A stretch of 32,748 bases of DNA. Source: Isohypsibius dastychi (lineage: Eukaryota > Tardigrada > Eutardigrada > Parachela > Isohypsibiidae). Positions 1 through 17,249 of the stretch are shown one piece after another. The position numbers were made by a program, and so were the translations under genes. The notes under the pieces were generated by a model. It was not told where the DNA came from and did not search any database. It worked only from the letters and a program-made list of their open reading frames with translations. Each line of letters begins with the position of its first letter. The stretch's first letter is position 1. Location of the stretch: positions 1 through 32,748 of the forward strand of contig JAQIWT010000131.1 of assembly GCA_034696485.1 (NCBI GenBank), written 5' to 3'.

Positions 1-3000
1 AGTGAACTGACGGTGGACCGGTGGATGATTGAGGTAAGTGGGATAGGTTAAATGTGGGGTGAGGAGGTTTGCCTAAAGTTGTGTTCTCTGATCAGGTTGA
101 GCGAGTCCTGAATTCTCAAGAGGCTTTTGTTCTGAATCACAAGTTTTCGGTCCTTGTTCAAATTGCTGATATTGCTGCCGGGTCGAGCTATGAAAATGTC
201 CCTGAGATGATTCGGAAGAAGTTGACGAAGCTGCGATGCGTACTACAAGTGAAGAACCATGACAGCATGTGCCTTGCAAGATGTTTCGTTCTGGCGAATG
301 CTTTTTTGAATGAGGGAAATCAGTCGGCAGAATATAAAAAAGTTAAAGATAATCCAAGTCATCAGCGCATATTGGCCAGGCAACTTCTTGAACGTGTGGG
401 TCTACCAGAATCTGAGCTTACTTTGGATGCTCTACCCAGCTTTTCAAAGGTGTGTTTTCTTCTCTCATAAAGAATATTTATGAATTTAAACTGTACTGTA
501 CAGATTTTCCCGAACAAAAGAATCAGAGTTTTTGGGCTGGATCAAGGGAATGCTGTTATTTATGACAACAAGGTTGACAGTCTTCGGGAAATAAACCTGT
601 TGCATCACTCCAGTCATTTTGCTGTGCTGAAATCTCTTGCCGCTTTTTTCAAACGAAGTTATTGGTGCCAAAAATGCAGCAAGGGTTATGATCACCGAGG
701 AAAGCATAGATGTTCTTTCACATGTTCTGCATGCAGTAGACAGGACTGTCCCGGAGATAATGGTGATCCCCGCGTATGCCCAGACTGTCACGTCACTTTT
801 CATGGTGCCGATTGCTTTACCCATCACAAACTAGGACCAGTGCCAGGGCCCATGCACAAACGAATACCCATTTGCGATCAAGTTCAAATTTGCCAGACTT
901 GCTTGTGCCACGTGAGAATGATTCGTGAGGAGGGAGACCAGGCGCATCAGTGTGGAGAGGTCATGTGTCATGTTTGTTTTCGTCACGTCATGCCAGATCA
1001 TAAGTGTTATATGAAACCCATTCACTTCACCGACGAAAAGCTGGAAGCGCATGCAGCCGCTCGTTTTCTTTTCTTTGATTTTGAAACCTATGTGAAACCG
1101 GATGGAACTCTGTGTCCTAATCTTGCAACAGTTGAAAACGATGAAGGAGAGCGGTGGTTGTTTCCTGAGGACGGGATTGTGGGACCTGACGTCACAGATT
1201 CTCTATGTAAATTTTTGTTCCAAGACTGCCACAGGGATCATATCGTTATCGCTCATAATTTCAAATCCTTTGATGGAATATTCATCCTCCAGTGGCTCCT
1301 TCGGCATAATATCAAAGTTGATCCGATCATGAATGGTGGCAAAATTCTACAACTTCTTGTTCCCGATTTCGATATTTGTTTTAAAGACTCATATTCCTAT
1401 GTCCCATCCAGTTTGAAAAAATTTCCGGCAGTTGTTGGGCTTGACGATGTTCGAAAAGGAGATTTTCCCCATCGCTTTAACCGAGAAGAAAACTGGAACA
1501 AAATTATCCCTTTTCCCACAAAAGAAGATTTTGACTACAACAAAAAGAGCGATAAGGACAAGGCCAGTTTTGACAAGTGGTACGAAGCGGAAATGGAAGC
1601 GAAAAATGGACTTTATAATTTCAACGATGAATTCATTGAATATTGCCGGCAAGACACTACAGTCCTTCGCCTTTGTGTTCACAAGTTTCGGGATTTGTTT
1701 ATGGAAGTCAGTGGTGGAATCTGTCCCTTTACCGCAGCGTTAACGATTGCCGGTGTATGCATGACGTATCTAAGAGTTCGGTGTCTCAAAGAAAATTGTA
1801 TCGGTTTAATTCATCGTATGGAAATTGGAAAAAACCGGAAACAGTCAGTTAAAGCATTGAAATGGATGGAGTGGGTGGAGACCGAGAACAGAATTGCAAT
1901 ACAAACCAGTGTGGCTGGAGGGGAGAAAAAAGTTGGAAAATATTACTTGGACGGATACTGTGAGGAAGAAAACAGAGCTTATGAATTCAATGGTTGTCAC
2001 TGGCATGGTTGTCCCAAATGTAATCACCCGTCAACTATTCATCCCCAACGTGGAATTAGCATGGAGCTCATTTATAAAGAGGCCATGACCAGGGAAAAGT
2101 TTATTCGTAGCCAGGGAATGGACTTGACTGTTATGTGGGAACATGAATATGAAGCCAAACGGAACCAGGACTTTGAGTTTCGGACATTCGTTGATGAACA
2201 AGCTGTCAGAGTTCCACTGGCTCCTCGTGATGCGTTTAAGGGAGGCCGAGTTAATGCGTTCAAGCTTCTCCATAATGTCACTGTCGACGAAAAAATCCAT
2301 TACTTTGACGTCACTTCAGGTAATTCAATTCTGGTAATTTATTATGTCTTCGTAAATAACCAACTTTGTCCTGAATAGAATATCCGTTTATCAACAAGTA
2401 TGGCAAATATCCAGTAGGACATCCGACTGTTATACGGAAAGAGTTTAAGTCAGTTGATAACTACTATGGACTCGTGAAATGTACCGTCCTTCCTCCCCGT
2501 GGCCTACTCATACCGGTTATTCCTGTGGAGGTTAACGGCAAGCTGTACTTTCCTCTCTGCCGAGCCTGTGCGCGTCAGCAAGTCAAAAGTGCATGTAGCC
2601 ATTCAGATTCAGAACGTAGCCTTTCGGGAACTTGGTGCAGTCCAGAACTTATGAAAGCCGTTACATTGGGTTACAAGGTGGGACCTTCACTCATTTATAT
2701 AACCAAAGCTGAATTGAAATAACTGGGTAATTTCCTCCAGGTGACTCATATTGAGGAAGTCTGGCATTATGAAGAGACTGAAGCCGGTCTTTTTGCAAAG
2801 TACATTGATACGTTTCTCAAGTTGAAAACTGAAGCGTCTGGGTGGCCTGATAACATTCAGTCAGAAACGGAAAAGGAGGCGTACTTGGTCGATTTTATGC
2901 AGCATGAGAATGTGCAGTTAGAGCCGGAAAAGGTACTGACCAACCCCGGACTCCGTAGCTTGGCCAAGTTGTGTCTGAATTCCATGTGGGGTCGTCTCGG

Positions 3001-3716
3001 GATGAGGGAGAATAAATTAAGGACAGAGTATGTCAACACCCCCGAACGATTCAATGAGCTGTTGCTGTCTGGGATGTACACCGTTAGTGGATTCGACATG
3101 TTTAGTGAGGATGTGGTTGTTGTGCAGTACAAGAGTGAAGAGGAGTTTGTCGAGGTGAACCCTACAGTTAATGTGGTCATTGCGGCGTAAGCGATCCGTT
3201 TCTTGTACTTTGTGGCTCCTCTGATAGACATTGTACAGGTTTACAACTTGTTTGGCTCGTCTTCACTTGTATCAGTTCATGGAAAAACTTGGATCCCAGC
3301 TTCTATATTGCGACACTGACTCCGTCATCTTCAGTCATAAGCCCGGTCAGTACCTTCCTCCAACCGGAAACTTTCTTGGCGATCTCACCAGCGAACTGAA
3401 GCCTGACCAATGGATCACCAGCTTTGGTTCTCTTGGACCCAAATGTTATGGATATCAGACCAACAAGGGGCAGACTTGCATCAAAATCAAGGGGCATACC
3501 ATCAACGGAGAGACCAAGAAGCAGTTAAACTTTGAAACTCTTTTGAGAATTCTTTGCGATAAATCTACTGAAGTTATCAAGTACTCCAATGTTCTTCAAC
3601 GTAACAGAAAACTCATGTCTATTTATCAGACTGATGCCACTAAAATATGGCGCGTCACTTATGACAAGCGCTATATTATTGACGACGAATTTAACACGTT
3701 GCCGTACGGATATTAA
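1..3716 (+). CDS. Protein-primed family B DNA polymerase (Polinton pPolB), 5' end missing
   Basis: Replicative polymerase of the element. Six exons join in frame: 1-33, 96-449, 504-2319, 2379-2677, 2741-3186 and 3239-3716. Introns are 52-63 bp with GT-AG ends. About 1,140 residues are present; the start lies upstream of the window. Seen in order: a Cys/His-rich zinc-finger-like region (about 660-1020); 3'-5' exonuclease motifs FDFET (near 1075), HNFKSFDG (near 1255) and YCRQDTTVL (near 1640); FKGGR before polymerase motif A (SEYPFINKYGKYPVGHP, spanning the intron at 2320-2378); motif B KLCLNSMWG (near 2968); and motif C YCDTDSVIF (near 3307). Every catalytic motif is intact and there is no frameshift. 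The stop codon overlaps the stop of the convergent TBP gene. The first intron (34-95) rests on splice consensus, its typical length and an open upstream frame. Confidence 0.95.
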
Positions 3717-4228
3717 ATCAATAAATTTATTTCCAATTTGGCAGCCATCAGTTCGAGTTCGCTCTTTGCACCCAAGAGATTAATTTTACCAGAATGAAAC
3801 AAAACAGCGGTACAGTCACTCAGCTTGACAGCCAATCCACAAAATAACTCTGGACAGTACACGACATTGAGAGACACACTGATATCTTCGAGCTTCAGTC
3901 TTCGGCCAATATCAAGAGCGGCAATAATATTCACGACTTTGAAATTGGTTAAAACACAGTGATACCCGACAGACTTGATTTTACTGCAGAAAAGTTTGGC
4001 GAGGTCCTCGGACTCCGCAACAGATTTTCCCCCATTTATCGTCATTTTTCCATTAGAATACAACTGGCAGTGAGCTTTGATCGGGGTGAGTACTCGCACT
4101 AATAATCCGGAAAATTTCCTGGGCAAATATAGTGCCATTGGAAGAACTGTCTCGAGATGCTTCAGGTCGAGAGTACATCCGAGGAATCCCGTGGCAACAA
4201 CATTAGCGATCCCGAGTACTCCAGCCAT
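3713..4228 (-). CDS. TATA-binding protein (TBP) homologue encoded by the Polinton
   Basis: A 171-aa protein made almost entirely of the two-repeat TBP saddle. Repeat 1 has NVVATGFLGCTLDLK (residues 9-23), YLPRKFSG (34-41) and YSNGKM (57-62). Repeat 2 follows the linker FKVVNIIAALDI and has PELFCGL (126-132) and VLFHSGKI (142-149), then LGAKS. These match eukaryotic TBP segments in the same order and at close to the same spacing. The four DNA-kinking phenylalanine positions are F39, Y57, F129 and F144, so all are aromatic. There is no N-terminal extension. By family knowledge it should bend TATA DNA and recruit TFIIB/TFIIA-like factors; use on the element's own promoters is inference. The ATG context is strong (ACAATGG). 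The start lies inside the upstream 4162-4647 ORF, and the stop overlaps the pPolB stop. Confidence 0.9.
   Translation of the reverse strand: MAGVLGIANVVATGFLGCTLDLKHLETVLPMALYLPRKFSGLLVRVLTPIKAHCQLYSNGKMTINGGKSVAESEDLAKLFCSKIKSVGYHCVLTNFKVVNIIAALDIGRRLKLEDISVSLNVVYCPELFCGLAVKLSDCTAVLFHSGKINLLGAKSELELMAAKLEINLLI
3720..3731. terminator. Palindromic, bidirectional poly(A) signal
   Basis: AATAAATTTATT reads AATAAA on both strands. It sits at the tail-to-tail junction of pPolB and TBP, whose stop codons overlap at 3713-3716, so one 12-bp palindrome can serve both transcripts. Confidence 0.65.
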
Positions 4229-4647
4229 TGTCCAAACACCAGAGCTTTCTGGAGCGTAGTTTTTTCAAATTTACAGAGTTCCTCAAAGAGTGGGCAGCCA
4301 CAGGAGTCCAGGTCAGTCACTTTACTGAGATATTTCTCCAGTGTACGAGCTTTGTCCAGTCCCTTTGCGTAAAAATCGAGGAATGAGCAGCGAAGATGGT
4401 GTTTCATACCCTCAAAAGCCAACTCGATTTGGTCGTGTCGGTACTCTCCAGTTTCGCGCCAGTCAATCCCATGTGACCAATTTGATTGGTTTTGCAGGTC
4501 CTTTTTATGAGATGCAGATCCAGGTGGTAAACTCAAGGTGAACTGACCCAAAATGCCTAGGGTGGGCGAAAAATACGCGACGCGTTTTAAGTGTTTGATT
4601 TTATCAATCAGGAACCAATCGGCATCGACAACCACGTGATGTGCCAT
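4162..4647 (-). CDS. RNase-H-fold-like protein of a family common in animal mobile elements
   Basis: 161 aa, ATG in strong context (ATAATGG), preceded by a TATATAAG box at 4695-4702. It opens with VVVDADWF and later has YAKGLDKARTLEKYLSKV followed by LDSCGCPLFEEL. From memory this layout (N-terminal V-D-x-x-x-F strand, a Y-x-K-G-x-x-K segment, then an x-x-CP-x-x-x-x-L segment) matches an uncharacterised RNase-H-fold-like family widespread in cnidarian and arthropod genomes and virus-like elements. Activity is unknown. Its last 67 nt overlap the first codons of the TBP gene in another frame, so the two may share a transcript. The family assignment is a pattern match, not a search result. Confidence 0.6.
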   Translation of the reverse strand: MAHHVVVDADWFLIDKIKHLKRVAYFSPTLGILGQFTLSLPPGSASHKKDLQNQSNWSHGIDWRETGEYRHDQIELAFEGMKHHLRCSFLDFYAKGLDKARTLEKYLSKVTDLDSCGCPLFEELCKFEKTTLQKALVFGQWLEYSGSLMLLPRDSSDVLST

Positions 4648-4694
4648 TATGACGTAGTGTCGCGATGAATACGATACGTCAGAGGGAGGTGGGC

Positions 4695-4702
4695 CTTATA
4701 TA
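4695..4702 (-). promoter_or_regulatory. TATA box (TATATAAG) for the RNase-H-like/TBP transcript
   Basis: TATATAAG on the minus strand, 48 nt before the ATG at 4647. The same octamer precedes the PC4-like gene and the small Cys-rich gene at similar distances. Confidence 0.7.
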
Positions 4703-4877
4703 GTATCAGTACGAGACGGTCCAAAAGTACGTGCCAGTAATCGGGAATGGTTTTCCCATATACATTAGCATGTTGATGCGGTCGAAGACCTAGGGCTAGC
4801 ATTCGAGAATGGCTCACCTTCATTCGTTAGTAACCTTGTGTGGCCTCGACTCATTGACTACATGTTATAGCAGATGG

Positions 4878-4885
4878 TATATAAG
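4878..4885 (+). promoter_or_regulatory. TATA box (TATATAAG) of the PC4-like gene
   Basis: TATATAAG lies 53 nt upstream of the ATG at 4938. Transcription would begin near 4905-4912, downstream of the out-of-context ATG at 4809, which supports 4938 as the true start. It is divergent from the box at 4695-4702, giving a roughly 290-bp bidirectional control region (4648-4937). Confidence 0.75.
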
Positions 4886-4937
4886 ACAAGTTTCTCCATC
4901 CAAGAGTCATTCATTCATCTCTTCATCATTCTTCGCA

Positions 4938-6055
4938 ATGGAATTTCCTCATCTCTTCGTCTCTCCCTTGAAGAAAGCCAGTCGTCACAAACTTCCCGCG
5001 CTCGTTATGCCACCCCGACCAGTGACTTCGGTGAGTGCCACACCAGGTAAAAAGTCGTTGAAGCGACCACTGGAAGACACCGTTGAGAGTCCGTGGAAGT
5101 TCCCAGCAGTGGAGAAACCCAAGGAAGCCTTTTTCGTCTTCAATGGAACTCCAGTCTTCAAGATCGCGTGAGTCAAACCAATTTTTTTTTTTGAATTCTG
5201 GATTTATCAGTTCAGGTTTAATATGAATCGAATTTTTTCTATTACAATTAAATTGAGGCAAAATCCTAAAGTTGACTCGATTCTAGGTTTGACAAATTTG
5301 TTTGCGTTCAAATTATTAATGGAAAGTTGGCCTTTGTTTTCTCCGAGTGGAAGTTCCAACCTGGAACTGGGTGGACTCATAATCCCAACAAGTCAATTAG
5401 CATGTCTCTGGAAGAATTTTTCAAGCTGTCTGCCATGGTTTTGGATGGTCGAGGGGAATATCAAGAGGCTGCCTTGGCTCCCATGTTGTTGTTAAAGTAC
5501 CATACTTACTTCACTTGGTCCAAATTCAATGGAACTCCATTAGCTTCAGTTCGCCAGTACTTTGTGAATGGGGGTGGGGACTTGTTGCCAACCAAGAGAG
5601 GAATTAGCTTCGGTCAGAAAGGATATGAAACTCTTAAGCAACTTATCCATTCCATGGTCTTGGTTAACACTGCTGCCACTTTGGAAGACCCCAAGACCCC
5701 AGTTAAGGGAGGGATTATGGATTTTGAGTTGGTCAAGTTGACTTTCGCCAACGTCATCCTGCAAAACATTTTGGATGCCCGTGTTGCCGCTTGTGGAATT
5801 TGTGAGACCGATATTCATCAGTGCCAGACCAAGGAGTTCCCAACCAAACAGGAAGTCATGGACGCAGTTGAGTTGGCCAAGAAGAAGAAACTAATGGAAG
5901 GTCTTTTGTTTAATTGCAATGCTGTGACATGCCGACAGTTTGTGGCTCTTGACTTTGAGAAGTGGTTTTCGGAGAACGCTGATTGGATTTCTGGAACTGT
6001 TGCCTCTACCTTCTCTCAGTTGTATGTTGTCACGGCTAGCCAAATTCCTGTTTAG
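4938..6055 (+). CDS. Tandem PC4-domain (ssDNA-binding transcription coactivator-like) protein
   Basis: Two exons, 4938-5167 and 5287-6055, join in frame around a 119-bp GT-AG intron and give 332 aa. The N-terminal 60 residues are basic and Pro-rich. The first PC4-like domain runs across the splice: VFKIAFDKFVCVQ, then NGKLAFVFSEW, then KSISMSLEEFFKL. It follows the PC4 order of strand, R/K-rich strands, G-I-S-L and a W/F-x-x-L helix. A second copy follows with ASVRQYFVNGGG, LLPTKRGISF and YETLKQLI. The C-terminal part has CGICETD and a lysine run. PC4 proteins bind ssDNA or melted promoters and act as coactivators. Here the role could be replication ssDNA binding, transcription, or both. The start is chosen by the TATA box and the compact leader. 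Confidence 0.75.
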
Positions 6056-6250
6056 ATTTTTCTCGACTTGTAGTAAATTCGGCCTCGTTTTTGGTAACAT
6101 TGTTAAAACAGAACCAGTAAATTTCTCCACTTGTTATATTCCGGTTCGTTATTTTCCTATGGAGTTAGGCTTAGAACACGAACGTTTTTTCTTTCTCGGT
6201 AAATTTATCGATCGCTTTTTTTACACATGTGCAAATTTTGACGTCACATT
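6056..6250. other. Short convergent intergenic spacer
   Basis: 195 bp between the convergent ends of the PC4-like gene and the protease. It contains a TGACGTCA octamer at 6239-6246. No gene is seen. Confidence 0.5.
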
Positions 6251-6742
6251 TCACCGATCAATGAGAAACTCGACGTCTAAAAGTGACGTTTTCAAGTCAA
6301 ACTTGCGATTTACATACAGGCGGACCATCTGGTCATTCGCGTGAGTATTCATTGAAAAACACTTTAGAATTTTAGAGAAAGATTTTCCAGAAGCTCTCTT
6401 CAGAATAAAAAACATGCAGTATTGACCACATACTGTGGTAAAGTTGGATTGGAGAGCTTGATCTTGCTTGATGACGATGTTGTTTTCCAGTATGGGCAGT
6501 TCAAAGTAATGGTATGCAGGTGATTTTCCAAATGAGTCAAAATATTCAATGACGTCATCCACGTCTTGATAAACTGCCACCCAGTGCTCTCCAGGTTCGT
6601 TTGAGGGATCCGTATTGATAATGCATGCTGAAGGCAACTTGTCAAAATAATCAGGAACTTTATCAGCCGGGAAAACCCCGTGAAAAATGTCACAAGTCCG
6701 CACATGCTCCCGCAGGGGCCGACTGATTTCTTCGGCGTTCAT
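6251..6742 (-). CDS. Adenain-type cysteine protease (maturation protease)
   Basis: 163 aa. The Ulp1/adenain catalytic set is visible: His53 in GEHWVAVY, Asp69 in YFDSFG, Gln98, and Cys105 in VCGQYC exactly seven residues after the Gln, the spacing found in adenovirus protease. By family knowledge it cleaves capsid and core precursors in the assembling particle. Candidate sites of the form Q-x-G-x-G or Q-x-G-G-x occur in three other proteins of this element. Its ATG overlaps the stop of the major capsid gene as ATGA, so it is the last gene of the structural block. No TATA-like box is seen just upstream. Confidence 0.92.
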   Translation of the reverse strand: MNAEEISRPLREHVRTCDIFHGVFPADKVPDYFDKLPSACIINTDPSNEPGEHWVAVYQDVDDVIEYFDSFGKSPAYHYFELPILENNIVIKQDQALQSNFTTVCGQYCMFFILKRASGKSFSKILKCFSMNTHANDQMVRLYVNRKFDLKTSLLDVEFLIDR

Positions 6743-8070
6743 GTTGCAAAGTCAGCAATAATTTGACGATGTTGATTAATTTCCAGTATGCTGTCGTAGA
6801 CCATAAGGCAGACCATCATGACCGTTTCAGGTAGTCCAGTTCCGAAAGTCACCGACACACTTAAATTACCCTGTTTGATTAGAGTGAGGGGTCCACGCCC
6901 TGTTCCACCAGGTGTCAAGTCGAATCCAAAGACAGTCATGCCTTGCTCGAACTCTTCTCTGTTGAACGGTACTTCTCCGAACGGGCTGTTACGCTGTTGA
7001 AGAGTATCCAAGAGCCCATCGTAGCATTCAAGTGACTGGTGAAGCGCAAAATCTGATCGGTAGGGTTTGGTTGGGTACGACTGGCCGTCAACTTCAACCG
7101 ATAGCTGTCGGACTTTGTAATGTTGAAAGTTGAACGGATTCTTCTTTGATGATCCATGAAAGTCAGTACTGGACACAAATCCCACCAACATGATTTTCGG
7201 TAACTGTCCAATGTGTAGATTGCTGACTATAGTAGACTGTGTGTCCTTGGTGATATCTGTCACTCTCATCACCACACGTTCCAGGTGATATTTCACGGTC
7301 TTCTGTTGTAATTGCTGAGTAACGGCGAGCATGTAATCCGGTGACGGGATATATCGTCGAACAGCTAATCGAGGATTTTTAATAAATGCCTTGAACTGTT
7401 TGTTTGGGTCGGTGTCCCACACACGAAGTGAGAATTCCGGCCGACTCATAACGAACCGAATGTTCAGCCCCATACCCGTGATCAGAGGTTTGTTTTGATC
7501 GAATAAATCAGCAGCAATTCTTCCAGACAACTGTACGTATTGTTTGCGCTTGAAAAACGCACGTCGCGAGATTTCACCGCCGTTAGTGTCGTCATTCAGC
7601 TTTCCCGGGTCATCAAGATAAAACAAACTCGAGCTCATCTGAGACTTGAGTGAATTTGCAGAGTGAAACAGTAGTGTTTCCATGTAGGCACGATATGCAT
7701 AATAATTTGACGAGTCCGTAATGGTTCGTCCACTTAATTCTATGGTTAAGTTTTGAAACAGGGAATGCAGAAAATTGTTGACTGGGGCAGCCAAGTCGTC
7801 ATCTTCGATAATCTTCCAGTCTGCTGCTCCAACCTTGACTTTAATTGCAACTTCCAACTCCAAATATACGTCATTGAGCGCCAAAAGTCCATGGCTGCAA
7901 GGTGGAATGTAAAATGTAATTTCACCCGAACTTCCTTCCTCGGTCAAGATAGTGACCGGGTTGATGCGTTCATGTTCCGTTCGCCATCGATCGGTAAAAG
8001 ATGCGGGGATTGCAAATAGTTGGTTCTCCATTTGCATCGCTGGTTCAGAATTCTCCAGTAGGAAAGCCAT
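6739..8070 (-). CDS. Major capsid protein (double jelly-roll, Polinton type)
   Basis: 443 aa, the usual length for Polinton major capsid proteins. The N-terminal jelly-roll start (INPVT...ITFYIPPCSHGLLALNDVYLEL) and the conserved PVNNFLHSLFQNLTIELSG / YAYRAYMETLLFHS / SSLFYLDDPG segment match the family often annotated in animal genomes as F54H12.2-like. The rest (KPLITGMGLNIRF; PFNFQHYKVRQLSVEVDG; SLECYDG) also fits. It should form pseudo-hexameric capsomers. It sits three nt after the pVI-like gene stop and overlaps the protease start by four nt. No frameshift is present. Confidence 0.93.
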   Translation of the reverse strand: MAFLLENSEPAMQMENQLFAIPASFTDRWRTEHERINPVTILTEEGSSGEITFYIPPCSHGLLALNDVYLELEVAIKVKVGAADWKIIEDDDLAAPVNNFLHSLFQNLTIELSGRTITDSSNYYAYRAYMETLLFHSANSLKSQMSSSLFYLDDPGKLNDDTNGGEISRRAFFKRKQYVQLSGRIAADLFDQNKPLITGMGLNIRFVMSRPEFSLRVWDTDPNKQFKAFIKNPRLAVRRYIPSPDYMLAVTQQLQQKTVKYHLERVVMRVTDITKDTQSTIVSNLHIGQLPKIMLVGFVSSTDFHGSSKKNPFNFQHYKVRQLSVEVDGQSYPTKPYRSDFALHQSLECYDGLLDTLQQRNSPFGEVPFNREEFEQGMTVFGFDLTPGGTGRGPLTLIKQGNLSVSVTFGTGLPETVMMVCLMVYDSILEINQHRQIIADFAT

Positions 8071-8073
8071 GAT

Positions 8074-8478
8074 TTAAAATGAATCAGGAATATCGTAAGG
8101 TGGTATTCTCTTTGGTGGACGTTTTTTCTTCGTCACTCCTTTACGTTTACGTTTCCCACTGCCTTCTTGAGGTAGAAATCGTTTTGCTATTGCTTGCTGA
8201 GCCTGTGCTGACACTTCTTTAATAGCCCCATCTGCAGCTTCTTTCAAGTGCGGCATTGCCGCCGACATGGCTGCTTTTGCGTGTGGTGCTGCTTGTTGGA
8301 ACAGAGGTTTGACAAAGTTTCCAATTTTGCTAAAGATGTTCTTCAGTATTTGGCCAAACGCCCCTGATCCGTTTTGGTATGCACTTCCTCGGTACCTGGT
8401 CATTGGACCAGAACCGTATTGAACAATAAATACGTCATCGTAGCGCCGCGGGTCTGGGACATAGGGTATCAGAGGCAT
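8074..8478 (-). CDS. Small basic virion protein (adenovirus pVI/core-like)
   Basis: 134 aa. It has a short N-terminal part, a predicted amphipathic helix (FGQILKNIFSKIGNFVKPLF), an Ala-rich helical region and a highly basic tail with KRKRKG and KKKRPPKR. Three GSG sites occur in the form Q-x-G-S-G (near residues 20, 36 and 110). They match the adenain consensus and would separate a leader, an amphipathic segment and a DNA-binding tail. Position between penton and major capsid genes, with 2- and 3-nt spacers, supports a virion role. Membrane lysis or DNA condensation is inferred from composition only. Confidence 0.75.
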   Translation of the reverse strand: MPLIPYVPDPRRYDDVFIVQYGSGPMTRYRGSAYQNGSGAFGQILKNIFSKIGNFVKPLFQQAAPHAKAAMSAAMPHLKEAADGAIKEVSAQAQQAIAKRFLPQEGSGKRKRKGVTKKKRPPKRIPPYDIPDSF

Positions 8479-8480
8479 TT

Positions 8481-9425
8481 TCAGTATGGGCGTAGTGGTC
8501 GGAAATGTAGTTTGACTAAGGTTTTTCCTGTAGCGAATTTTGCTGTTTCTTCCAAGTCAGTACTAATACTGATATTAATGTTCTCAAAGTGATTTGTCAA
8601 CACCGGGGTGTAATGTGGAATATCAAATCTTTCTGTAATTAAATCCATGAAGCTTCCTTTAATAGGCACAGTCCTAATAATCTGTGCGGCAGAATCTCCC
8701 ATCAGAGAATAATCAGCGACATCGCAATAAACAAAGAGACTTTGGTTCCCAAGTAGAGGGTTGAGTGGTCGAGGTGCGATCATGGTTGGTGACAGGTGGA
8801 TATGGCTTTTGGATTTGTGATATAAATTGACAACCTCTTTGACAAGGTCCTCGTTCCGCTCACAAATCTGAGTTGAGTAAATATCACTGTGGTCGAATCC
8901 AAAAATCTTTTGCAAAGCGATCGAGTCTGGTGGGAAAAAAACATGGACTCGTTCATTCCCCAGCATAATTTTGATCCGATGGTCAGTTGATGAAACGATA
9001 TCAGCAGTAAATGCTTTATCGTTTGGGCATCGACTAGGTTGCAGGTAGTTGACTGCTCCTTCTGGTCGCAATAGATTAAACTGTAAGAGTTCTGGAATAT
9101 TTTCTCTGAGTACATTGAGAAATGCCTCCGGTGTGGAGTAATGTCCAGGTGGAAATGTGATCACGTGATCGGTGGACTTGTAAGAAATTTCTTCATCAGC
9201 AACAGGCTGAATTATCTCCGTAATTGTTCGCACAATAATGCGTTGTGATTGCGAAAGAGTCGATAAAGAGTTCATGTACTGCATTTCGACCAGAGCCACT
9301 TCCCATTTCCCTCTCAGATTGACCACGTGCTTGAGTTTAGTGGTCCAGTCTGCCGCTGTGTTACGATAGTACTGGTCCATCGAAGCATCGGACGGTAAAG
9401 TAATGTAAAACGGAGATTCATGCAT
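8481..9425 (-). CDS. Minor capsid protein (penton-type single jelly roll)
   Basis: 314 aa. The opening FYITLPSDASMDQYYRNTAADWTTKL and the following GKWEVALVEMQYM are the hallmark of Polinton minor capsid/penton proteins. Later features are FPPGHYSTPEAFLNVL, FVYCDVADYSLMGDSAAQIIRTVP and the C-terminal TGKTLVKLHFRP strand. By homology it forms the pentameric vertices. The gene follows the integrase by two nt and precedes the pVI-like gene by two nt. Confidence 0.9.
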   Translation of the reverse strand: MHESPFYITLPSDASMDQYYRNTAADWTTKLKHVVNLRGKWEVALVEMQYMNSLSTLSQSQRIIVRTITEIIQPVADEEISYKSTDHVITFPPGHYSTPEAFLNVLRENIPELLQFNLLRPEGAVNYLQPSRCPNDKAFTADIVSSTDHRIKIMLGNERVHVFFPPDSIALQKIFGFDHSDIYSTQICERNEDLVKEVVNLYHKSKSHIHLSPTMIAPRPLNPLLGNQSLFVYCDVADYSLMGDSAAQIIRTVPIKGSFMDLITERFDIPHYTPVLTNHFENINISISTDLEETAKFATGKTLVKLHFRPLRPY

Positions 9426-9427
9426 GA

Positions 9428-10456
9428 TTATTTTATTGTTTTCTTGTCAATCCAGGAATTAAATTCAGGGCCGTAGCCTAACCACTTGACAAACACTTTG
9501 CCCTTTCTCTCTTTAATAACCTTCTCAATCTTAAATTCTTCATCGGCACCCTTAAAACCAGTAACCAGAGACAATTCAGCTTCGTAAAATTTTCCAACTA
9601 GAGGTTCTCCTTTAAGGTCCTCCAGCTTGTAAACCGGAACGGTGTGTTCGATGACTTTTTTGATGACAAATATTTCCTCGTGAAATTTGTATTCATATCC
9701 TTTTTCGAAAACTTTTTTCTCCTTTGCGATACGAACTGTATCTCCAACCTTGTATCGCGGTTTCTTGTTGATCAGTTCCCCGTACAGTTGATTGAACACT
9801 TGTAGTGAATTGTCGTGCTGAACATCGGCTGGTTTCATCTTGATTGATGAGTGTTCAGAATTATTGTACGAGTCCACTATATCTTGAAGTGCATCGATGT
9901 ACTCTGTGGAAATTCGGTGACGAAATAATTTCCAGATTCTTGATTTGATTGTCGATATGAGTCTTTCAGCCATGGCGCATTTGATGTCACTGTTTTCTGA
10001 CGTTATCAGTCTGATATTGTGCTCCTTGAAATAATCCAGAACATTCTTGTTGAAGAACTCCTTCCCTTTGTCTGATTGAATTTTTTCCGGTTCGCCCAGC
10101 TCTTTGAACACAACTTTCAGAGCAGTCAGGACTTCTGGTCCGGTTTTATTCTTAAGAGGCTGAATGCTCGCTTTACGGCTGAAACAATCTATTACCACCA
10201 GCAGGAACTTGACTCCTTTATTTTCCTTGTGGTAACGGCTTAGGTCCGCCAGGTCCATCTGGAATTGTTGCTGGAAATTGCTCACTATGATCCGATTCCT
10301 CCGAAACTTTTTTCTTTTTTGTTTGTTTACGGTATATGAATCTAAACCTTGCAGGAAAGCTTCGGCTTTTGCTTCGGTTACGTTGGCAGCTTTTGCTAAT
10401 CTCCGAGCTCCCCCTAAGCTGCCCGGGTTCTTCGGGTCGTGGTAAATCTCGTCCAT
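9428..10456 (-). CDS. Retrovirus-like DDE integrase with C-terminal chromodomain
   Basis: 342 aa from the ATG at 10456; the frame stays open to 10513, but the conserved family N-terminus IYHDPKNPGSLGG begins just after the chosen Met. The catalytic triad is D68 (QMDLADL), D129 (QSDKGKEF) and E164 (AMAERLIST), a normal D,D-35-E spacing. An SH3-like DNA-binding region (PRYKVGDTVRIAK) follows, then a chromodomain (FKIEKVIKERKGKVFVKWLG...SWID) at the C-terminus. It inserts the linear element into the genome; the chromodomain may steer insertion to modified histones (family knowledge). All catalytic residues are intact. A TATTTTTAAAG stretch at 10484-10494 could be its promoter but is close to the ATG. 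Confidence 0.95.
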   Translation of the reverse strand: MDEIYHDPKNPGSLGGARRLAKAANVTEAKAEAFLQGLDSYTVNKQKRKKFRRNRIIVSNFQQQFQMDLADLSRYHKENKGVKFLLVVIDCFSRKASIQPLKNKTGPEVLTALKVVFKELGEPEKIQSDKGKEFFNKNVLDYFKEHNIRLITSENSDIKCAMAERLISTIKSRIWKLFRHRISTEYIDALQDIVDSYNNSEHSSIKMKPADVQHDNSLQVFNQLYGELINKKPRYKVGDTVRIAKEKKVFEKGYEYKFHEEIFVIKKVIEHTVPVYKLEDLKGEPLVGKFYEAELSLVTGFKGADEEFKIEKVIKERKGKVFVKWLGYGPEFNSWIDKKTIK

Positions 10457-10534
10457 CGTTACAACAATTTGACACACAGTCGACTTTAAAAATACGACAA
10501 AAGCGCAGCACACTTGGTATCCAAGCCATTCTCT

Positions 10535-11119
10535 TTAATAGAGATATATCCACTTCTTTTTATTTGATCCTCCTTCCTGTTGTGAAACTACAATGTTGGA
10601 CCGTTTCTCAAATCGGCCTGGTGGCCGCTTTTTAATAGTGGAAATGACAGATTCCGGCTCTTGGCTCTCTGATTCTTGGCTCTCTGATCTTCTGGTGGCT
10701 TTTTGTCTTGTTCGGGAAGATATTGGACTTCGAACCGGTGTCACAATTGCATCTCTTGTTCTTGAAAGATCAGGACTTGGCTTGTCAGACGGTCTAAGCT
10801 TATGTTTTTGAGGTGTTGACCGAGAATTCCAAACTGATTTTGATGGTTTCGGTGCCTGTGTCCGTGTAAAGTTTTTGGTCGGTTGATAAGTTGGGTTGGC
10901 GTCCCCCATGGATTTTGGTCGCAGAGCGAGAAATCTTTCCAGTGACGAAGACAACATGTCGGCTTTTTCCCATTCGGAAATATCTTCCCGTCTGAGAAGT
11001 TTCCTTGTGAACGCATCAAGATTTACCATCTCAAGTGCTTCCGGTGGCTCTTTGTTCAGCTGAATTTGGGTGAGTTTCTGATCCATGACGCGTTTAGGGA
11101 CGATAAAATATTCATTCAT
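10535..11119 (-). CDS. Polinton conserved virion-type protein with basic tail
   Basis: 194 aa. The N-terminus (NEYFIVPKRVMDQKL) resembles short conserved proteins seen beside Polinton ATPase and integrase genes, from memory. The middle and C-terminus are disordered, rich in Ser/Arg/Pro, with two nearly identical SESQE repeats. Near the end, QQEGGSNKKKW contains Q-E-G-G-S, a match to the adenain consensus, which would release a short basic-aromatic tail. It starts seven nt after the 106-aa gene stop. Exact function unknown. Confidence 0.7.
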   Translation of the reverse strand: MNEYFIVPKRVMDQKLTQIQLNKEPPEALEMVNLDAFTRKLLRREDISEWEKADMLSSSLERFLALRPKSMGDANPTYQPTKNFTRTQAPKPSKSVWNSRSTPQKHKLRPSDKPSPDLSRTRDAIVTPVRSPISSRTRQKATRRSESQESESQEPESVISTIKKRPPGRFEKRSNIVVSQQEGGSNKKKWIYLY

Positions 11120-11125
11120 TTCAGC

Positions 11126-11446
11126 TTACGCTAGAGCTGATCCTAGCACTGAAGCTAAAATAGGCAATAATGCTCCAAGAAATCCTCCTTGTTGAAGGAT
11201 CTTTTTCTTCTGTTTCGATGGGTATCTTTTCAAAGCCAGTAATTTGAGCGGTTTTCTCCAACGGTGACAAGTTTTCAGCTGGTCGGGAGAGAGTGGTGTG
11301 GTGCTCTTCACAATATTAACGGCAACTTCGGTTAATCCTTTCAGATGATCCTTGTTTAAATAGTCAACTACGACTTTTCGTTGACTTGGCTTCAAACTTT
11401 TCAATGTGATGACAACAGGTGCCAGGTGTCTCACGTTTTCCGACAT
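11126..11446 (-). CDS. Small virion-type protein with hydrophobic C-terminus
   Basis: 106 aa. A helical N-terminal half (LKSLKPSQRKVVVDYLNKD) is followed by a basic stretch (LALKRYPSKQKKKILQ) and then QGGFLGALLPILASVLGSALA. The last part is a known recurring Polinton motif: a basic run, then a Q-x-G-G-F site, then a Gly/Leu-rich hydrophobic tail. Protease cleavage at the double glycine would free a membrane-active peptide (inference). Its ATG overlaps the ATPase 3' end by 16 nt, and a TATTTAAG box inside the ATPase frame lies 67 nt upstream, which suggests its own promoter. Confidence 0.75.
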   Translation of the reverse strand: MSENVRHLAPVVITLKSLKPSQRKVVVDYLNKDHLKGLTEVAVNIVKSTTPLSPDQLKTCHRWRKPLKLLALKRYPSKQKKKILQQGGFLGALLPILASVLGSALA

Positions 11447-12099
11447 GGCAAGGCAGTTGAGTTGTTCAAATACAGTCGCATATACTGATCTGGTAACACG
11501 TGAGAGCGCACTCTTAAATAGTCGGGCGTGTTCGGTTTGAGGTCTATCACAAGTGGCTCAAACGCTTCCTTGGTGACTTTTTCATACGCCTCAGTCAAAT
11601 GTGGTAGGCCCATTTGTCTGGCAAGTGTCTTGATCTGGTTGACGTCACGGCAGTTTCGGAATAAGACCATGTACTGGCTGTTTAGATGTATGTCACGCAT
11701 TGATTTTCCTTGCTTGTACAGATTTTGCATAATCAGAACCACGGACACATTTTTATGGTGAATGCCTTGCGTGAAAAGTTTCGATGCTTTTGGATGATTT
11801 GACAGTTCTTGGCCGAGGTCATCCAGTATCAGTAAGGTACTGACTGTACTATCAAAATAATCTTCCTGGTCGAATATTTTTTCAATTCCCTTAACAAATT
11901 CGACGTTTTTCATGGAGTCAAACGCAGGTTGCCATTCACCGTAAGCATACACGATGCGATCAATTGGTTTGTTTATCATTTGATCCTTGAATTCAATCAG
12001 TTTCGATATAAACACGCTCTTCCCACTCATGGTAGGCCCGCACACCACAGCACCAAATGGTGCACAGAAACGAGGATCAGAGTCAAGTACGGAATACAT
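11431..12099 (-). CDS. FtsK/HerA-type (A32-like) genome-packaging ATPase
   Basis: 222 aa. Walker A is GPTMSGKS (residues 21-28) and Walker B is LLILDDL (near residue 90). Downstream are VSVVLIMQNLYKQGKSMRDI and the sensor-like region LFRNCRDVNQIKTLARQMG, typical of Polinton packaging ATPases. It should pump the linear genome into preformed capsids. Intact. A TATTTAAG box (12143-12150) lies 44 nt upstream. Confidence 0.93.
   Translation of the reverse strand: MYSVLDSDPRFCAPFGAVVCGPTMSGKSVFISKLIEFKDQMINKPIDRIVYAYGEWQPAFDSMKNVEFVKGIEKIFDQEDYFDSTVSTLLILDDLGQELSNHPKASKLFTQGIHHKNVSVVLIMQNLYKQGKSMRDIHLNSQYMVLFRNCRDVNQIKTLARQMGLPHLTEAYEKVTKEAFEPLVIDLKPNTPDYLRVRSHVLPDQYMRLYLNNSTALPCRKT
11513..11520 (-). 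promoter_or_regulatory. Putative TATA-like box (TATTTAAG) for the 106-aa gene
   Basis: TATTTAAG on the minus strand, 67 nt before the ATG at 11446 and inside the ATPase coding frame. It is identical to the box before the ATPase itself. Confidence 0.5.
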
Positions 12100-12142
12100 C
12101 GTGAAATATTTAAATGTTGTTACATTCTCCTGGCTAGGCGCT

Positions 12143-12150
12143 CTTAAATA
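12143..12150 (-). promoter_or_regulatory. Putative TATA-like box (TATTTAAG) for the ATPase
   Basis: TATTTAAG on the minus strand, 44 nt before the ATG at 12099, in the 66-bp spacer behind the Cys-rich gene. Confidence 0.55.
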
Positions 12151-12165
12151 ACCGATCGGAAAACT

Positions 12166-12399
12166 TTAGTTACAAAGACTGAAACAGTCAAGAAAACATT
12201 CGCAGCATATGAAACAGGTAAAACAACAGTTTGTTAGGGCACTTTCTTTATCAGGTTCTGTAATCGGTCCAGTATAAGGTGGAGGACTATCTGAGTGGTG
12301 AGTTGGAACCTGAGTCTCGGGGTTGCTGACGCCGAAAAAATCCTTGAGTAAATATGGCGGCGGGCGTGGCTGACAAATTATGAGCTGAGGCTCGTCCAT
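12166..12399 (-). CDS. Small Cys-rich protein with two PPxY motifs
   Basis: 77 aa. Two PPPY motifs (residues 13-16 and 39-42) lie in a Pro-rich N-terminal half. The C-terminal 20 residues hold nine cysteines (NCCFTCFICCECF and onward) mixed with aromatic residues, which looks like a multiply palmitoylated membrane anchor. PPxY is the ligand of WW-domain NEDD4-family ubiquitin ligases and acts as a late domain in several viruses, including adenovirus pVI (family knowledge). A role in trafficking, ubiquitin recruitment or budding is inference. It has a TATATAAG box 64 nt upstream. No homologue is recognised. Confidence 0.65.
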   Translation of the reverse strand: MDEPQLIICQPRPPPYLLKDFFGVSNPETQVPTHHSDSPPPYTGPITEPDKESALTNCCFTCFICCECFLDCFSLCN

Positions 12400-12462
12400 T
12401 TTGAAAGTGAATTTGGGTCGAACCGCATGTGTTTTACTGTTTTATTAAGCTTGTGGTGCAGT

Positions 12463-12470
12463 CTTATATA
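12463..12470 (-). promoter_or_regulatory. TATA box (TATATAAG) of the PPxY protein gene
   Basis: TATATAAG on the minus strand, 64 nt before the ATG at 12399. It overlaps the 3' end of the upstream 117-aa gene. Confidence 0.7.
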
Positions 12471-12817
12471 CCATTATAGTAGACATCAACTGCGAATTCG
12501 ATTATTCTATAACAGTCTGCCAAAATACACACAAAGTTCATAATCGTTAGAAATGGGTTCGGACGACGCTTCGCAGCTGGCTGTACTGGGCTATCCGGAA
12601 CTACCGGCTGAGCGTCCTTTGGCGGCTGACGTGTTCGCTTCATTCTCCTGAGGGTGGGTCTAATGGTATTTTCCTTATCGGAGGCACTTGTGTCGGTGTC
12701 GGAGCCAGACGAAATAGTAAAGCGGTCGCTGTGCGAAGAAGGCGGGGTTGGAGATGTGTCTGGCACGTCCCTGTTGACGGCTCTGGCCTCTCGGTATGAT
12801 ACAGGACGTCGATACAT
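12464..12817 (-). CDS. Small basic protein with C-terminal hydrophobic segment, unknown function
   Basis: 117 aa from the ATG at 12817. The frame extends upstream to 12940, but the TATATAAA box at 12885-12892 lies inside that extension, so the inner Met is preferred. It has a Ser/Thr/Pro-rich, probably disordered region, basic patches (RRMKRTRQ, AKRRPNPF) and a C-terminal hydrophobic helix starting FLTIMNFVCILADC. It could be a tail-anchored or virion protein. Not recognised. Confidence 0.5.
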   Translation of the reverse strand: MYRRPVSYREARAVNRDVPDTSPTPPSSHSDRFTISSGSDTDTSASDKENTIRPTLRRMKRTRQPPKDAQPVVPDSPVQPAAKRRPNPFLTIMNFVCILADCYRIIEFAVDVYYNGI

Positions 12818-12884
12818 TATACAGCAGAAGATTAAAAGCAAGACTGATAATGAAGGTCTGTGCTTTATGGGAACTAAATCTCTC

Positions 12885-12892
12885 TTTATATA
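12885..12892 (-). promoter_or_regulatory. TATA box (TATATAAA) of the 117-aa gene
   Basis: TATATAAA on the minus strand, 68 nt before the ATG at 12817. Confidence 0.6.
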
Positions 12893-13057
12893 CAGGACCC
12901 TGATCGATATATCTATCCGAAGTGGCCGGAAAATATTCACTAGCCGTAGAAGATGGCCTAACTCAATTTTACAACATCAGACAACGGTCGAACACACTGA
13001 AACAGTGATAGATAATGGTCGAAACTGAATGACTGTTTTTTTCCTCTGATGTGGTTC

Positions 13058-13065
13058 TATAAATA
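13058..13065 (+). promoter_or_regulatory. TATA box (TATAAATA) of the BIR-like gene
   Basis: TATAAATA lies 41 nt before the ATG at 13106, followed by an initiator-like TCAGT at 13079-13083. Confidence 0.6.
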
Positions 13066-13105
13066 CTGGAAAATAATGTCAGTGATCATCCACATCTCTG
13101 TTATC

Positions 13106-13408
13106 ATGGATTCAATTTCTCGGGAACGTATGGAATTGGAAATGGATATGTCCACTTTGGAGGCTCGGATGGCCAGTTTTGAGAACCACAAGTTTCGCCA
13201 TGGAGTCAGCTGGTCGATTTTAGCTGATGCTGGTCTTTATTGTTATAGTGATCTAGGCTGTCTTCGCTGTGCTGCGTGTGCCTTAATGTTTCGGCCAGAC
13301 TATCCAAGCTTGGGGAATTCAAACGATTTTGTACTTCTAGCCTATGGTCATACGTGTAAATATTCCATGGGCCGCAATCCTAACGTTCAGATTAATAAAA
13401 TTGTTTGA
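13106..13408 (+). CDS. BIR-like (inhibitor-of-apoptosis type) zinc-finger protein
   Basis: 100 aa from the ATG at 13106, chosen because the TATA box at 13058 excludes the upstream Met at 13049. The core reads EARMASFENH...SILADAGLYCYSDLGCLRCAAC, which follows the BIR pattern R-x-x-S-F, L-A-x-A-G-[LF]-Y, then C-x-x-C (C55, C58). A His and a Cys near the end (H82, C84) could complete a zinc site, but their spacing is not the canonical H-x6-C. It is a degenerate single BIR without RING. BIR proteins of insect DNA viruses block caspases; such a role here is inferred. An AATAAA (13394-13399) overlaps the last codons. Confidence 0.6.
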   Translation: MDSISRERMELEMDMSTLEARMASFENHKFRHGVSWSILADAGLYCYSDLGCLRCAACALMFRPDYPSLGNSNDFVLLAYGHTCKYSMGRNPNVQINKIV

Positions 13409-13785
13409 TTGAATGATTCCGTGATCGCTCCTTAACTCCAGTCACTTTAAACAACTCGAAACACTGAAGTTTGATCCCTGTGTCCACTAACAAAATTCGT
13501 GACGTCAGGTGTCACGTGGGGTACAACTGATGCAACGTGCGGAGCTTCGGATTTGGGGGGGGGGGGGCGTGTGAGGGGTCCGACACAGGTGGCAGGGTCC
13601 GGCCGCGCATGGCCATAAATCGAATATCATTGATTTTAATTTAATAAATTAAATTAAATCAATAAGTTATACGGACGCTCTTCCTACTCGTAAGGAAGCA
13701 AAATGCTCGCTTAGCGCTGATTTCTTCTCGAGCTATCGTTCATTTTCGCTGCAACATTCGTAACTAGAGCAGTTCAGAATTTAAT
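13409..13785. other. Junction between Polinton and Harbinger remnant; low-complexity sequence
   Basis: No gene. It contains TGACGTCA (13500-13507) with a nearby CACGTG, a run of 13 G (13555-13567), a repeated GGGTCC, and an AT-only palindrome at 13629-13663. It probably includes the Polinton right end, but no terminus can be proven here. Confidence 0.5.
13629..13663. repeat. AT-rich near-perfect palindrome
   Basis: A 35-bp sequence starting ATTGATTTTAATTTAA and ending AATTAAATTAAATCAAT. The arms are complementary apart from one extra T, so it can form a hairpin or cruciform. Confidence 0.6.
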
Positions 13786-15041
13786 ATGGCAGCCGAGAAT
13801 AAAGCTGTTTTGATCAACGCCATTATGCAACATATTCAGTCTTTCGAAGATTTTTTCAACGCAGTTTTGACTGAACACACTGGACTTCATCAATGTTTGA
13901 TAGCAGCATATGGCATTATGGGTGAAAGAGATTTCGTCAACCGGGAATTACGCAAATCCAGCATGAAGGAACTTCTAAAGTAAGCTGAGTTTTACACAAA
14001 CTGCAATGCTGACCGATCTTAAACAGAAGAATATATTTATTTAATAATTTTGTTTCAGCACGCCGGAAAGAGTTTTCAAGGAAACATTCCGCCTAAACAA
14101 GCGTCTTTTTAATTCGGTAGTGAAAGCAACAGCCAGAGAATTCGACCAAACTGCCGACCCAGAAACCATCCAACTATTCCATATCAACCTGGTAACACTT
14201 CATGTTGCAACTGGATTGTACATTTTGGGACCCGGGTCCACAATAGCTGCTGCAGCCGTTTCTTTGGGACTAGGAAGATCAACCGTCCATAAAAATTTCG
14301 TTGCGTTTCTGAACGCGATAAAAAGAACATACTCGGGGCTCATTCGTCTTCCGGACGCAGCGCAGATCGCAAAGTTTTCGGAAATGAATGCAGCGAAATG
14401 GAAAGCCGCTGGTGCACTGTGGGTTCCACCAATTTTTGGAGCAGTTGATGGAAGTCACATCTACATTCACCGACCAGCTGAAAATCCTGATTCGTATTAT
14501 AACCGCCACAGAACATTTAGCGTGGTACTGCAGGCTCTCGCTGCACCAACCGGTCAAATTCTTCACGCAACTTTCAGGCCGGGTTCACAATGCAAAAATC
14601 TTTGAAACCAGCGGACTTTTGGATTTAATTCCAGCCGGCACGAAAATACTGGGAGATGGGGCTTATCCGTACTCAACAAAATTACTGACACCTTATAGAG
14701 ATAATGGGACGATAAACCAGGAAAAGAAAAAATACAATAAGATGCTTTCGGGAACTCGGATGTGTGTTGTTGGAATGCTTAAAGGACGATGGCGAATTTT
14801 GGGGAACACCATAAAATATAAGAACATGAGCATGATAAACCATATTGTGCTTGTGTGTTGCTTGCTTCACAATTTATGTCTGGCCGATAATGACGATGCC
14901 GATGAATTTATGTTGGAACAAGAACAAGATGCCAACATGAATGGGGACTTTCACGAAGACCCAATCGAGGACAATAACTCTGTGGATAAGCGCCGTAACC
15001 GATTTTGGGCCAAAGTGTTTGCCCCTCAAAATGCGATTTGA
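13786..15041 (+). pseudogene. PIF/Harbinger transposase, frameshifted
   Basis: Exon 13786-13979 and a second exon from 14059 join around a 79-bp GT-AG intron. The transposase is clear: a helix-turn-helix-like region (SLGLGRSTVHKNFVAFLNAI), then PPIFGAVDGSHI carrying the first Asp, then YYNRHRTFSVVLQAL. At about 14580 the frame breaks. The protein resumes in another frame with VHNAKIFETSGLLDL and GDGAYPYSTKLL (a DDE Asp) and ends at 15041. The expected second Asp is replaced in the HATFRPG segment. The final Glu region is shortened: TRMCVVGMLKGRW lacks the usual V-E-R-A-F. Frameshift plus missing catalytic residues indicate a dead copy. Confidence 0.85.
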
Positions 15042-15212
15042 AAAAATTACTGAAAACTAACTTGTATTGTACAGTTCAGTATGTATCCGATTTTTTTGTT
15101 AGCGTAACCGCAAAATGATTAAAAAACTGTCATAACCCGATGCGAATCAAATTGATTGAAAAACAAGAGCTGAATGATTATATGAAACGTTCACTCAAAT
15201 TTTACTCGAATT

Positions 15213-15992: not shown

Positions 15993-16264
15993 CTTGTCAC
16001 CTGAGGAACAAATAAAAAAATTAAAATAAAGTTGGGGGCTGTTGGGATTATTTCCGCGAAAGTATGTGCCGGGATTCCGTGTTATGCTGGTATTTTTGTA
16101 ATAAAAATTTACGGCTGATAATTTATATATTTATTTTATACAAATGTATCCACACGTGCGTGTATATCATCGAAATAAAAACAAGTTTACTTTCTGTGCC
16201 TTGAAGGCCTTTCATATTGATATGCGGTTGCGTGCCGAAAGTTTCGTCGAAAAGGTCGAAATAT

Positions 16265-16462
16265 TCAAACGAAGATCGACCTTCTCCGCTTGTATGGCCC
16301 AGTTGAACTTTTCTTTTTGTAGCGCGCAAATTGGTTGTCGTATCGTTTCTGAACTTGTTTGTAGTTGTATCTTGCAGAATCCGGAAACGCCTCATGGAGA
16401 GCATTAGTGACGCTCATCCAGTAGAACAAATAATTATCGTTCTTGTCGAATTCTTTTTGCAT
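16265..16462 (-). CDS. Myb/trihelix-like DNA-binding exon of the Harbinger partner gene (partial)
   Basis: 65 codons with the signature of Harbinger Myb-like proteins: FYWMSVTNALHEAFPDSARY followed by NYKQVQKRYDNQFARYKK. The exon probably extends upstream in frame to an acceptor-like TTTGTAG near 16490. The frame stops after KRRRSIFV, so a donor must lie before that, or the copy is broken. Confidence 0.6.
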   Translation of the reverse strand: MQKEFDKNDNYLFYWMSVTNALHEAFPDSARYNYKQVQKRYDNQFARYKKKSSTGPYKRRRSIFV

Positions 16463-17184: not shown

Positions 17185-17249
17185 CCAGCCTTCGCCTGGC
17201 CGCAAGAAATCCGGTTTTCACACCTCTGACCCGAAAACATCACAGGAAC
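17185..17249 (+). repeat. Dispersed repeat, copy 1
   Basis: A 65-bp block starting CCAGCCTTCGCCTGGC and ending CACAGGAAC. It is about 85% identical by eye to 19566-19631, in the same orientation. Similarity fades outside the block. Probably a fragment of a MITE or SINE-like element; class unknown. Confidence 0.7.

Follow-up and report, generated by a model that had tools for sequence, protein, structure and literature searches.

A TATA-binding protein gene carried by one lineage of Polinton elements in a tardigrade genome

Polintons are often regarded as a root group of eukaryotic DNA viruses, and we take Polinton/Maverick elements and the adintoviruses to be the closest known elements to the one described here. 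Genes for TATA-binding protein (TBP) are known from other viruses. TBP is reported from 59% of mirusvirus genomes (PMC10132985), and viral TBPs are usually paired with a viral TFIIB, in nearly all such viruses except poxviruses (PMC7221094); megavirus and CpV-BQ1 are described as carrying TBP together with TFIIB. The TBP-like ORF24 protein of KSHV has asparagine at the positions of T124 and V122 and serine at that of L114 (PMC12529657, Table 1), and the KSHV late-gene motif is given as TATTWAARV in PMC6541308. Passages of papers that join Polintons or adintoviruses with TBP place the protein in mirusvirus-like elements, mirusviruses, giant viruses or unrelated text (PMC10675990, PMC10132985, PMC12220804, PMC11464507, PMC12085832, PMC7786948). 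A first-pass annotation of the DNA analysed here had remarked that TBP was not known as a Polinton or adintovirus gene. This agrees with our literature search, which found no such gene described, most subscription papers lying outside its scope.

The window, by which we mean the whole stretch of 32,748 nucleotides from Isohypsibius dastychi (contig JAQIWT010000131.1, C131 below), contains an element of some 13 kb or more (Table 1). No inverted repeats of at least 30 nt were found in positions 1-20000 of the window, the left end possibly lies off the contig, and the polymerase (PolB) may begin beyond the window edge. This polymerase, presumably of the protein-primed type that we associate with the PF03175 group, consists of five pieces, with four GT...AG gaps of 52-63 nt between them (450-503, 2320-2378, 2678-2740 and 3187-3238). 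We considered a broken gene and rejected it, given that the borders of all four stretches fit short introns, from which we infer splicing. The PC4-like gene probably opens at the ATG at 4938, with a predicted first exon ahead of the frame that encodes the PC4 domain.

The 443-aa capsid candidate has relatives in the elements on contigs C157, C432, C101, C394, C439 and, in part, C801, and profile searches of Pfam and PDB for a double jelly-roll capsid gave no match to it. The C-terminus of the integrase has a chromo-like match below threshold, and the 106-aa protein (11126-11446, minus strand) weakly resembles adenovirus core protein X (E=0.0014, below the cut-off). A 77-aa ORF (about 12166-12399, minus strand) has PPPY motifs, a Cys-rich tail and its own TATATAAG box. 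Small proteins beside two Polinton copies, at 13049-13408 (plus strand) of the window and at L010:5074-5364 (minus strand), have sub-threshold matches to BIR (inhibitor of apoptosis) domains, and a fragment of a Harbinger-type DDE transposase (PF13359) adjoins the element at 14388-15041 (plus strand).

Table 1. Genes and promoter-like motifs of the element. Motif distances are relative to gene starts; those in the related element C157 are in brackets.
Feature	Position	Strand	Basis or location
Family B DNA polymerase (organellar/viral type)	69..3716	+	PF03175, 4.4e-27
Element TBP, two TBP repeats, 171 aa	3713..4228	-	Pfam, phmmer, residue alignment
161-aa gene, family not assigned	4162..4647	-	Open frame; overlaps TBP start by 67 nt
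PC4-like gene	4938..6055	+	PC4 domain in frame 5327-6055, PF02229, 1.5e-09, above cut-off
Adenovirus-type cysteine protease	6251..6742	-	PF00770, 2.3e-05, above cut-off
443-aa conserved protein, major capsid candidate	6739..8070	-	Size and place only
Conserved element proteins of 134 aa and of 314 aa	8074..9425	-	314 aa is a minor capsid candidate by place only
RVE integrase	9428..10513	-	PF00665, 1.6e-12, above cut-off; likely ATG 10456
Two small element proteins, 194 aa and 106 aa	10535..11446	-	Open frames; 106 aa conserved
A32-type packaging ATPase	11431..12099	-	PF04665, 4.8e-06, above cut-off
TATATAAG box	4695..4702	-	-55 of ATG of 161-aa/TBP pair
TATATAAG box	4878..4885	+	-60 of probable PC4 ATG (4938)
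TATATAAG	12463..12470	-	-71 of 77-aa PPPY ORF
TATATAA	12886..12892	-	-75 of ATG 12817 of ORF ending at 12464
TATTTAAG	12143..12150	-	-51 of ATPase ATG (C157: -59)
TATTTAAG	11513..11520	-	-74 of 106-aa gene (C157: -77)
TATTAAAG	10533..10540	-	-84 of integrase (C157: -84)
TATTAAAG	9511..9518	-	-93 of 314-aa gene (C157: -78)
TATTAAAG	8657..8664	-	-186 of 134-aa gene (C157: -185)
TATTAAAG	8217..8224	-	-154 of capsid candidate (C157: -151)

The TBP gene is a single open frame that fills its interval exactly, from ATG to stop. The first-pass annotation had recognized two TBP repeats in it by eye, and profile searches bear this out: the 171-aa protein matches PF00352 over two separate stretches (score 107.2 bits, cut-off 22.9; E=3.9e-31), and phmmer pairs its residues 6-162 with residues 66-225 of the full-length yeast TBP entry. 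A sequence search of PDB returned 35 distinct sequences, each TBP-named or TBP-fused (one as ECU04_1440), with yeast TBP first at 2.7e-22. A profile built from 23 relatives, every one of which matches the TBP family, reaches PDB TBPs at E-values down to 1.8e-42. Because of these E-values, and because seven uninterrupted copies lie on seven contigs, chance is excluded; the element protein is a true member of the TBP family. The four aromatic residues singled out earlier as DNA-kinking (F39, Y57, F129 and F144) align with F99, F116, F190 and F207 of yeast TBP. The gene had also been placed between the polymerase and the PC4-like gene. Its polymerase side stands, but on the other side the 161-aa gene intervenes.

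This 161-aa partner has a D-x-D-W motif near its start that is invariant in five copies. It gave no significant match in Pfam, PDB or the sequence database, and screening 1165 candidates at E 0.001 brought up no relative. The overlapping 161-aa/TBP pair recurs in C157, C432, C101 and C394, and both genes co-occur in C1494 and C163; the two genes appear to have been relocated together. Relatives of the 161-aa protein also occur on C605, C1184 and C737, contigs that have no TBP match.

A search of the whole genome (30.4 Mb in 1648 contigs) gave TBP matches on 21 contigs, comprising two cellular genes (C792 and C274) and 19 others. A Polinton gene is present on 18 of these 19, two of which (C688 and C548) are counted from genome searches only. 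On the remaining 16 the Polinton gene lies in the window or in the loci that were read, and TBP adjoins PolB or the ATPase or is one gene away. The exception is C135, where no Polinton gene occurs within the 10 kb read. These relatives strongly support the earlier proposal that TBP is cargo of the element, and the same gene, sought in other Polintons of the genome, was found there, although its placement differs between copies. An uninterrupted TBP is present in seven of the 19 copies (C131, C157, C432, C101, C394, C801 and C439), and the other 12 are incomplete or disrupted or were traced over only part of their length. On C1246 (L018:1975-2112) only TBP residues 127-171 match, and short repeats spaced 30 nt apart lie directly before the match.

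The elements show two ARRANGEMENTS of TBP placement. TBP faces the PolB end in C131, C157, C1494 and C1246. The 161-aa/TBP pair adjoins the ATPase, in the opposite direction, in C432, C101 and C394, and in a second clade (e.g., C801 and C439) TBP immediately precedes the ATPase, both genes having the same orientation. With the window ATPase as query, 40 contigs match, and with the N-terminal part of PolB, 43, a heavy Polinton load for a 30-Mb assembly. TBP occurs on 14 of the 19 contigs whose ATPase identity is at least 40% and on none of the 21 below 40%, with the cautions that C360 has two ATPases, TBP lying beside the one at 38%, and that the ATPase of C163 was detected only with another query. 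From this split we conclude that TBP marks one Polinton lineage and is undetected in the others. TBP and ATPase identities run in parallel (r=0.91 for 10 non-independent pairs of 5 copies). Among the 21 pairs formed by the seven intact copies, dN is 0.15-1.03 and dS is 1.77-3.20 in five and not estimable in 16, and for this reason we regard the TBP protein sequence as being under constraint.

The host TBP gene is the one on C792 (E=1e-94 to human TBP), and C274 carries a divergent TBP-like paralog; no Polinton gene matched within 10 kb around the former or 5.7 kb around the latter. Database searches yielded 25 relatives of the window protein and 117 of the TBP alignment. A first tree of 90 rows was built from 79 of these 117, each of 150-260 residues, together with a longer protein from Steinernema and 10 further sequences. 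In it, clade A (30 rows, 100/98) and clade B (39 rows, 98/99) stand apart from cellular TBPs (99/96), and host TBP lies beside human TBP, its nearest among the few references used. The nematode spliced leader has no exact match in the genome. A second tree of 37 rows, 27 of them hand-picked database rows, with groups named after inspection of the first tree, places A and B together on one side of a branch (100/98.6). AU tests reject grouping A (p-AU 0.003) or B (0.0016) with animal/fungal TBPs, and reject grouping the window copy with host TBP (p-AU 5e-105). The trees cover a small cellular sample, with named giant-virus, mirusvirus and herpesvirus TBPs left out. Within this scope the ancestry of the element TBP is separate from that of host TBP. 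Both clades are rich in metagenomic relatives, rows that come without a visible gene neighbourhood, and IMG/VR, queried with TBP, the TBP alignment, the ATPase, the capsid candidate and host TBP, yielded no confirmed relative. The longer Steinernema protein (P0091, S. hermaphroditum TBP-like QR680_008043) forms a long branch. The best explanation of the whole is that TBP has been a lasting gene of one animal Polinton lineage since before clades A and B split.

Residues were tallied, in yeast TBP numbering, across 68 near-full-length rows chosen by hand (29 of clade A, 39 of clade B). The positions of F99 and F207 are aromatic in every row, as is that of F116 (28 Y and one F in A; 38 F and one Y in B), and that of F190 is aromatic in 67. 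N69 is kept in 61 rows and N159 in 67. Of the two acidic TFIIB contacts, E188 is E in 67 rows, with the adjacent P187 kept, and E186 is E in 32 (8/29 in A, 24/39 in B), having been lost in 21 of the 29 clade A rows; the window protein has C at E186 and E at E188. K138, K145 and R107, which we take to be TBP positions used by host regulators, have also changed: the two lysines are not conserved, and R107 is mostly L or F in A and D, S or E in B. This gives no support to an earlier suggestion that the protein might replace host TBP in infected cells. On the DNA-reading face, L114 is Q in 65 of the 68 rows and T215 is L in 67, the latter change being shared by one row among the cellular TBPs of the tree (P0053), and V122T, T124N and V213N occur in clade A, each in 29 of 29 rows. 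All five positions are among the DNA contacts tabulated for TBP and ORF24 (PMC12529657, Table 1). The DNA-reading face carries fixed alterations, while the aromatic residues that kink DNA and one of the contacts to TFIIB have been retained.

Canonical TATA boxes precede accessory genes of the window element (Table 1), and such a box also stands before the 161-aa/TBP pair of C157 (TATATAA, -54) and C1494 (TATAAAA, -44); none precedes the pair in C432, C101 and C394, where it abuts the ATPase. The late block (6251-12160) has, on its gene strand, no TATAWAA and nine TATTWAA, with one TATTWAA on the other strand. Only 0.86 TATTWAA are expected, and none of 300 simulations reached nine. A reversed control pattern is raised as well (5 vs 1.37, reached by 6/300), but not when judged against codon shuffles. 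Six of the nine sites read TATTWAAG, a motif that we sought after the upstream sequences had been inspected. C157, the closest relative (43-70% protein identity), was then used as a test. On its late strand all seven TATTWAA are TATTWAAG; they precede the same six genes as in C131, and the distances are similar. One TATTWAA lies on the other strand. Sites within frames are not explained by coding content, because synonymous codon shuffles reached the observed counts in 0 of 1000 trials both for C131 (4 vs 0.42 expected) and for C157 (4 vs 0.22). A 10-mer search allowing one mismatch in eight late upstream regions of C131 found TATTTAAGAG in four, a result reached by 0/60, 6/1000 and 0/150 simulations. 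The best 8-mer in C131 is CTATTAAA, reached by 4/200 simulations.

We considered TATTWAA as a motif of every element with a TBP, an idea that found no support. Within 200 nt of late starts, TATTWAAG occurs before none of six genes in C432, none of four in C101 (which has one TATTAAG at -30) and none of eight in C394 (which has two sites further off, at -228 and -571), although the TBPs of these elements carry the same altered DNA-face residues. Searches for 10-mers in the late upstream regions of these three elements found nothing, and a 10-mer search in C157 alone and an exact 8-mer search in C131 were not significant. C801 and C439 have TATTAA-type sites before only two of the six genes, the 106-aa gene (-113/-111) and the integrase (-176/-178). 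In seven elements together TATTAA is mildly raised (18 vs 11, 5/300) and TATTWAA hardly (12 vs 8.4, 36/300). The best single 7-mers were not significant per element, being matched by 22/200 simulations for C131 and 47/200 for C801, and a k-mer search of 58 upstream regions from all elements put no TATA-like motif on top. Some sites in the window fit no promoter by position, namely TATAWAA at 333, 2696 and 2701 (in PolB) and TATTWAA at 3711, 5223, 7384, 11362 and 12107, and the 19 kb outside the element contain two TATTWAAG and one TATATAAG. Our literature search on TATTWAA and Polintons found no paper.

Because of the intron-like gaps in PolB and the TATA boxes, it is very likely that host RNA polymerase II (Pol II) transcribes the element. 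The best reading of the TBP is that it would redirect host Pol II to element promoters. Host TBP would act first, at the TATATAA boxes, giving accessory proteins that include the element TBP. This protein would then bind and kink element promoters and recruit both Pol II and the TFIIB of the host, the latter by way of E188, the stirrup glutamate that it has retained. The element would gain a promoter-recognition step of its own, most likely for the late block with its ATPase, integrase and capsid candidates, which in the window element is free of TATAWAA; the proposed targets in the C131/C157 sub-lineage are the TATTWAAG boxes. The protein would work like herpesvirus ORF24, but built from a real TBP. 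That a lasting Polinton TBP gives the element its own promoter recognition, most likely at the late block, we consider reasonably probable. The narrower two-stage programme, with host TBP at TATATAA for accessory genes and element TBP at TATTWAAG for late genes, each working with host TFIIB and Pol II, is a possibility that we advance tentatively, as three related TBP-bearing elements have late genes without the motif. Host TBP may bind TATTWAAG as well.

The strongest competitor to a late-gene specificity is that the protein acts as a general promoter factor, supplying TBP activity to all element genes without any late choice and allowing, for instance, escape from host inhibitors (Mot1/BTAF1, NC2) or limiting TFIID, with TATTWAAG, where it occurs, read by host TBP or by both proteins. 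The changes at the presumed regulator positions K138, K145 and R107 would fit such a factor, as would the missing late-gene motif in three related elements; changes at host-regulator positions are reported for viral TBPs generally in PMC7221094. Against a general factor stand the fixed alteration of base-contacting residues and the make-up of the window element, whose late block lacks TATAWAA on the gene strand but has TATTWAA nine times, beside four accessory genes with TATATAA, and we judge it unlikely.

A dominant interfering factor, which would bind DNA or host TFIIB without initiation and so repress host transcription or competing viruses, could be read into the loss of E186 in most clade A rows and the lack of a TFIIB match on element contigs. 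The retention of E188 and P187, and the position of the gene in the core block by the ATPase or PolB, make this very improbable. Least credible is an origin from host TBP, through a retrocopy or a domesticated copy that entered the element. The gene on C792 exists as a possible source, but the window copy is only 34-35% identical to it, 18 contigs with Polinton genes carry relatives, and the trees, AU tests (including p 0.003 for clade A and 5e-105 for the window copy) and Polinton neighbourhood rule out this origin, the recent host insertion against which the first-pass annotation had proposed a check included. What remains favoured is promoter recognition by the element's own TBP.

Little is known of Polinton transcription, and with a TBP that one lineage has maintained as a lasting gene of its own, the question becomes testable on a small scale: one small protein and short DNA duplexes suffice. 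The specificity of the element TBP may even be readable from its fixed residue changes. Viral TBPs are known from giant viruses, mirusviruses and herpesviruses, and TBP is now found in a class of element of far smaller size. If the TATTWAAG link is true, animal DNA viruses have evolved an early/late switch through replacement of TBP on at least two occasions, and if the two-stage programme is true, an element of some 13 kb or more has independently arrived at the early/late logic of beta- and gammaherpesviruses.

Among known systems, host TBP and its paralog belong to the same family but are separate genes, with no Polinton gene matched in the stretches read around them. Mirusviruses differ in their far larger genomes and HK97-fold capsid, their TBPs being likened to ours by presence and not by sequence. 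With the TBPs of large double-stranded DNA viruses the element protein shares the two-lobed form and the kept DNA-contact positions (PMC7221094); nearly all of those viruses, poxviruses excepted, have a TFIIB of their own, whereas a genome search with PF00382 gave two TFIIB matches, on C503 and C870, neither of which is a Polinton contig. The likeness to ORF24 of KSHV and other beta- and gammaherpesviruses extends to the kept kinking aromatics, the change of T124 to N, the polar changes on the DNA face and late genes with TATTWAA(R), here at the late genes of C131 and C157 but not of C432, C101 and C394. ORF24 is, in contrast, a 752-aa multidomain protein that lacks both acidic TFIIB residues and belongs to a set of six viral factors, whereas the element encodes a bare TBP of 171 aa that keeps E188. 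The element itself, with a family B polymerase, RVE integrase, adenovirus-type protease and A32-type ATPase together, resembles Polintons/Mavericks and differs from Polintons and adintoviruses, as described in the papers found, in its TBP gene. The kind of element is known, but this gene has not been reported for it, and its promoter logic may be new.
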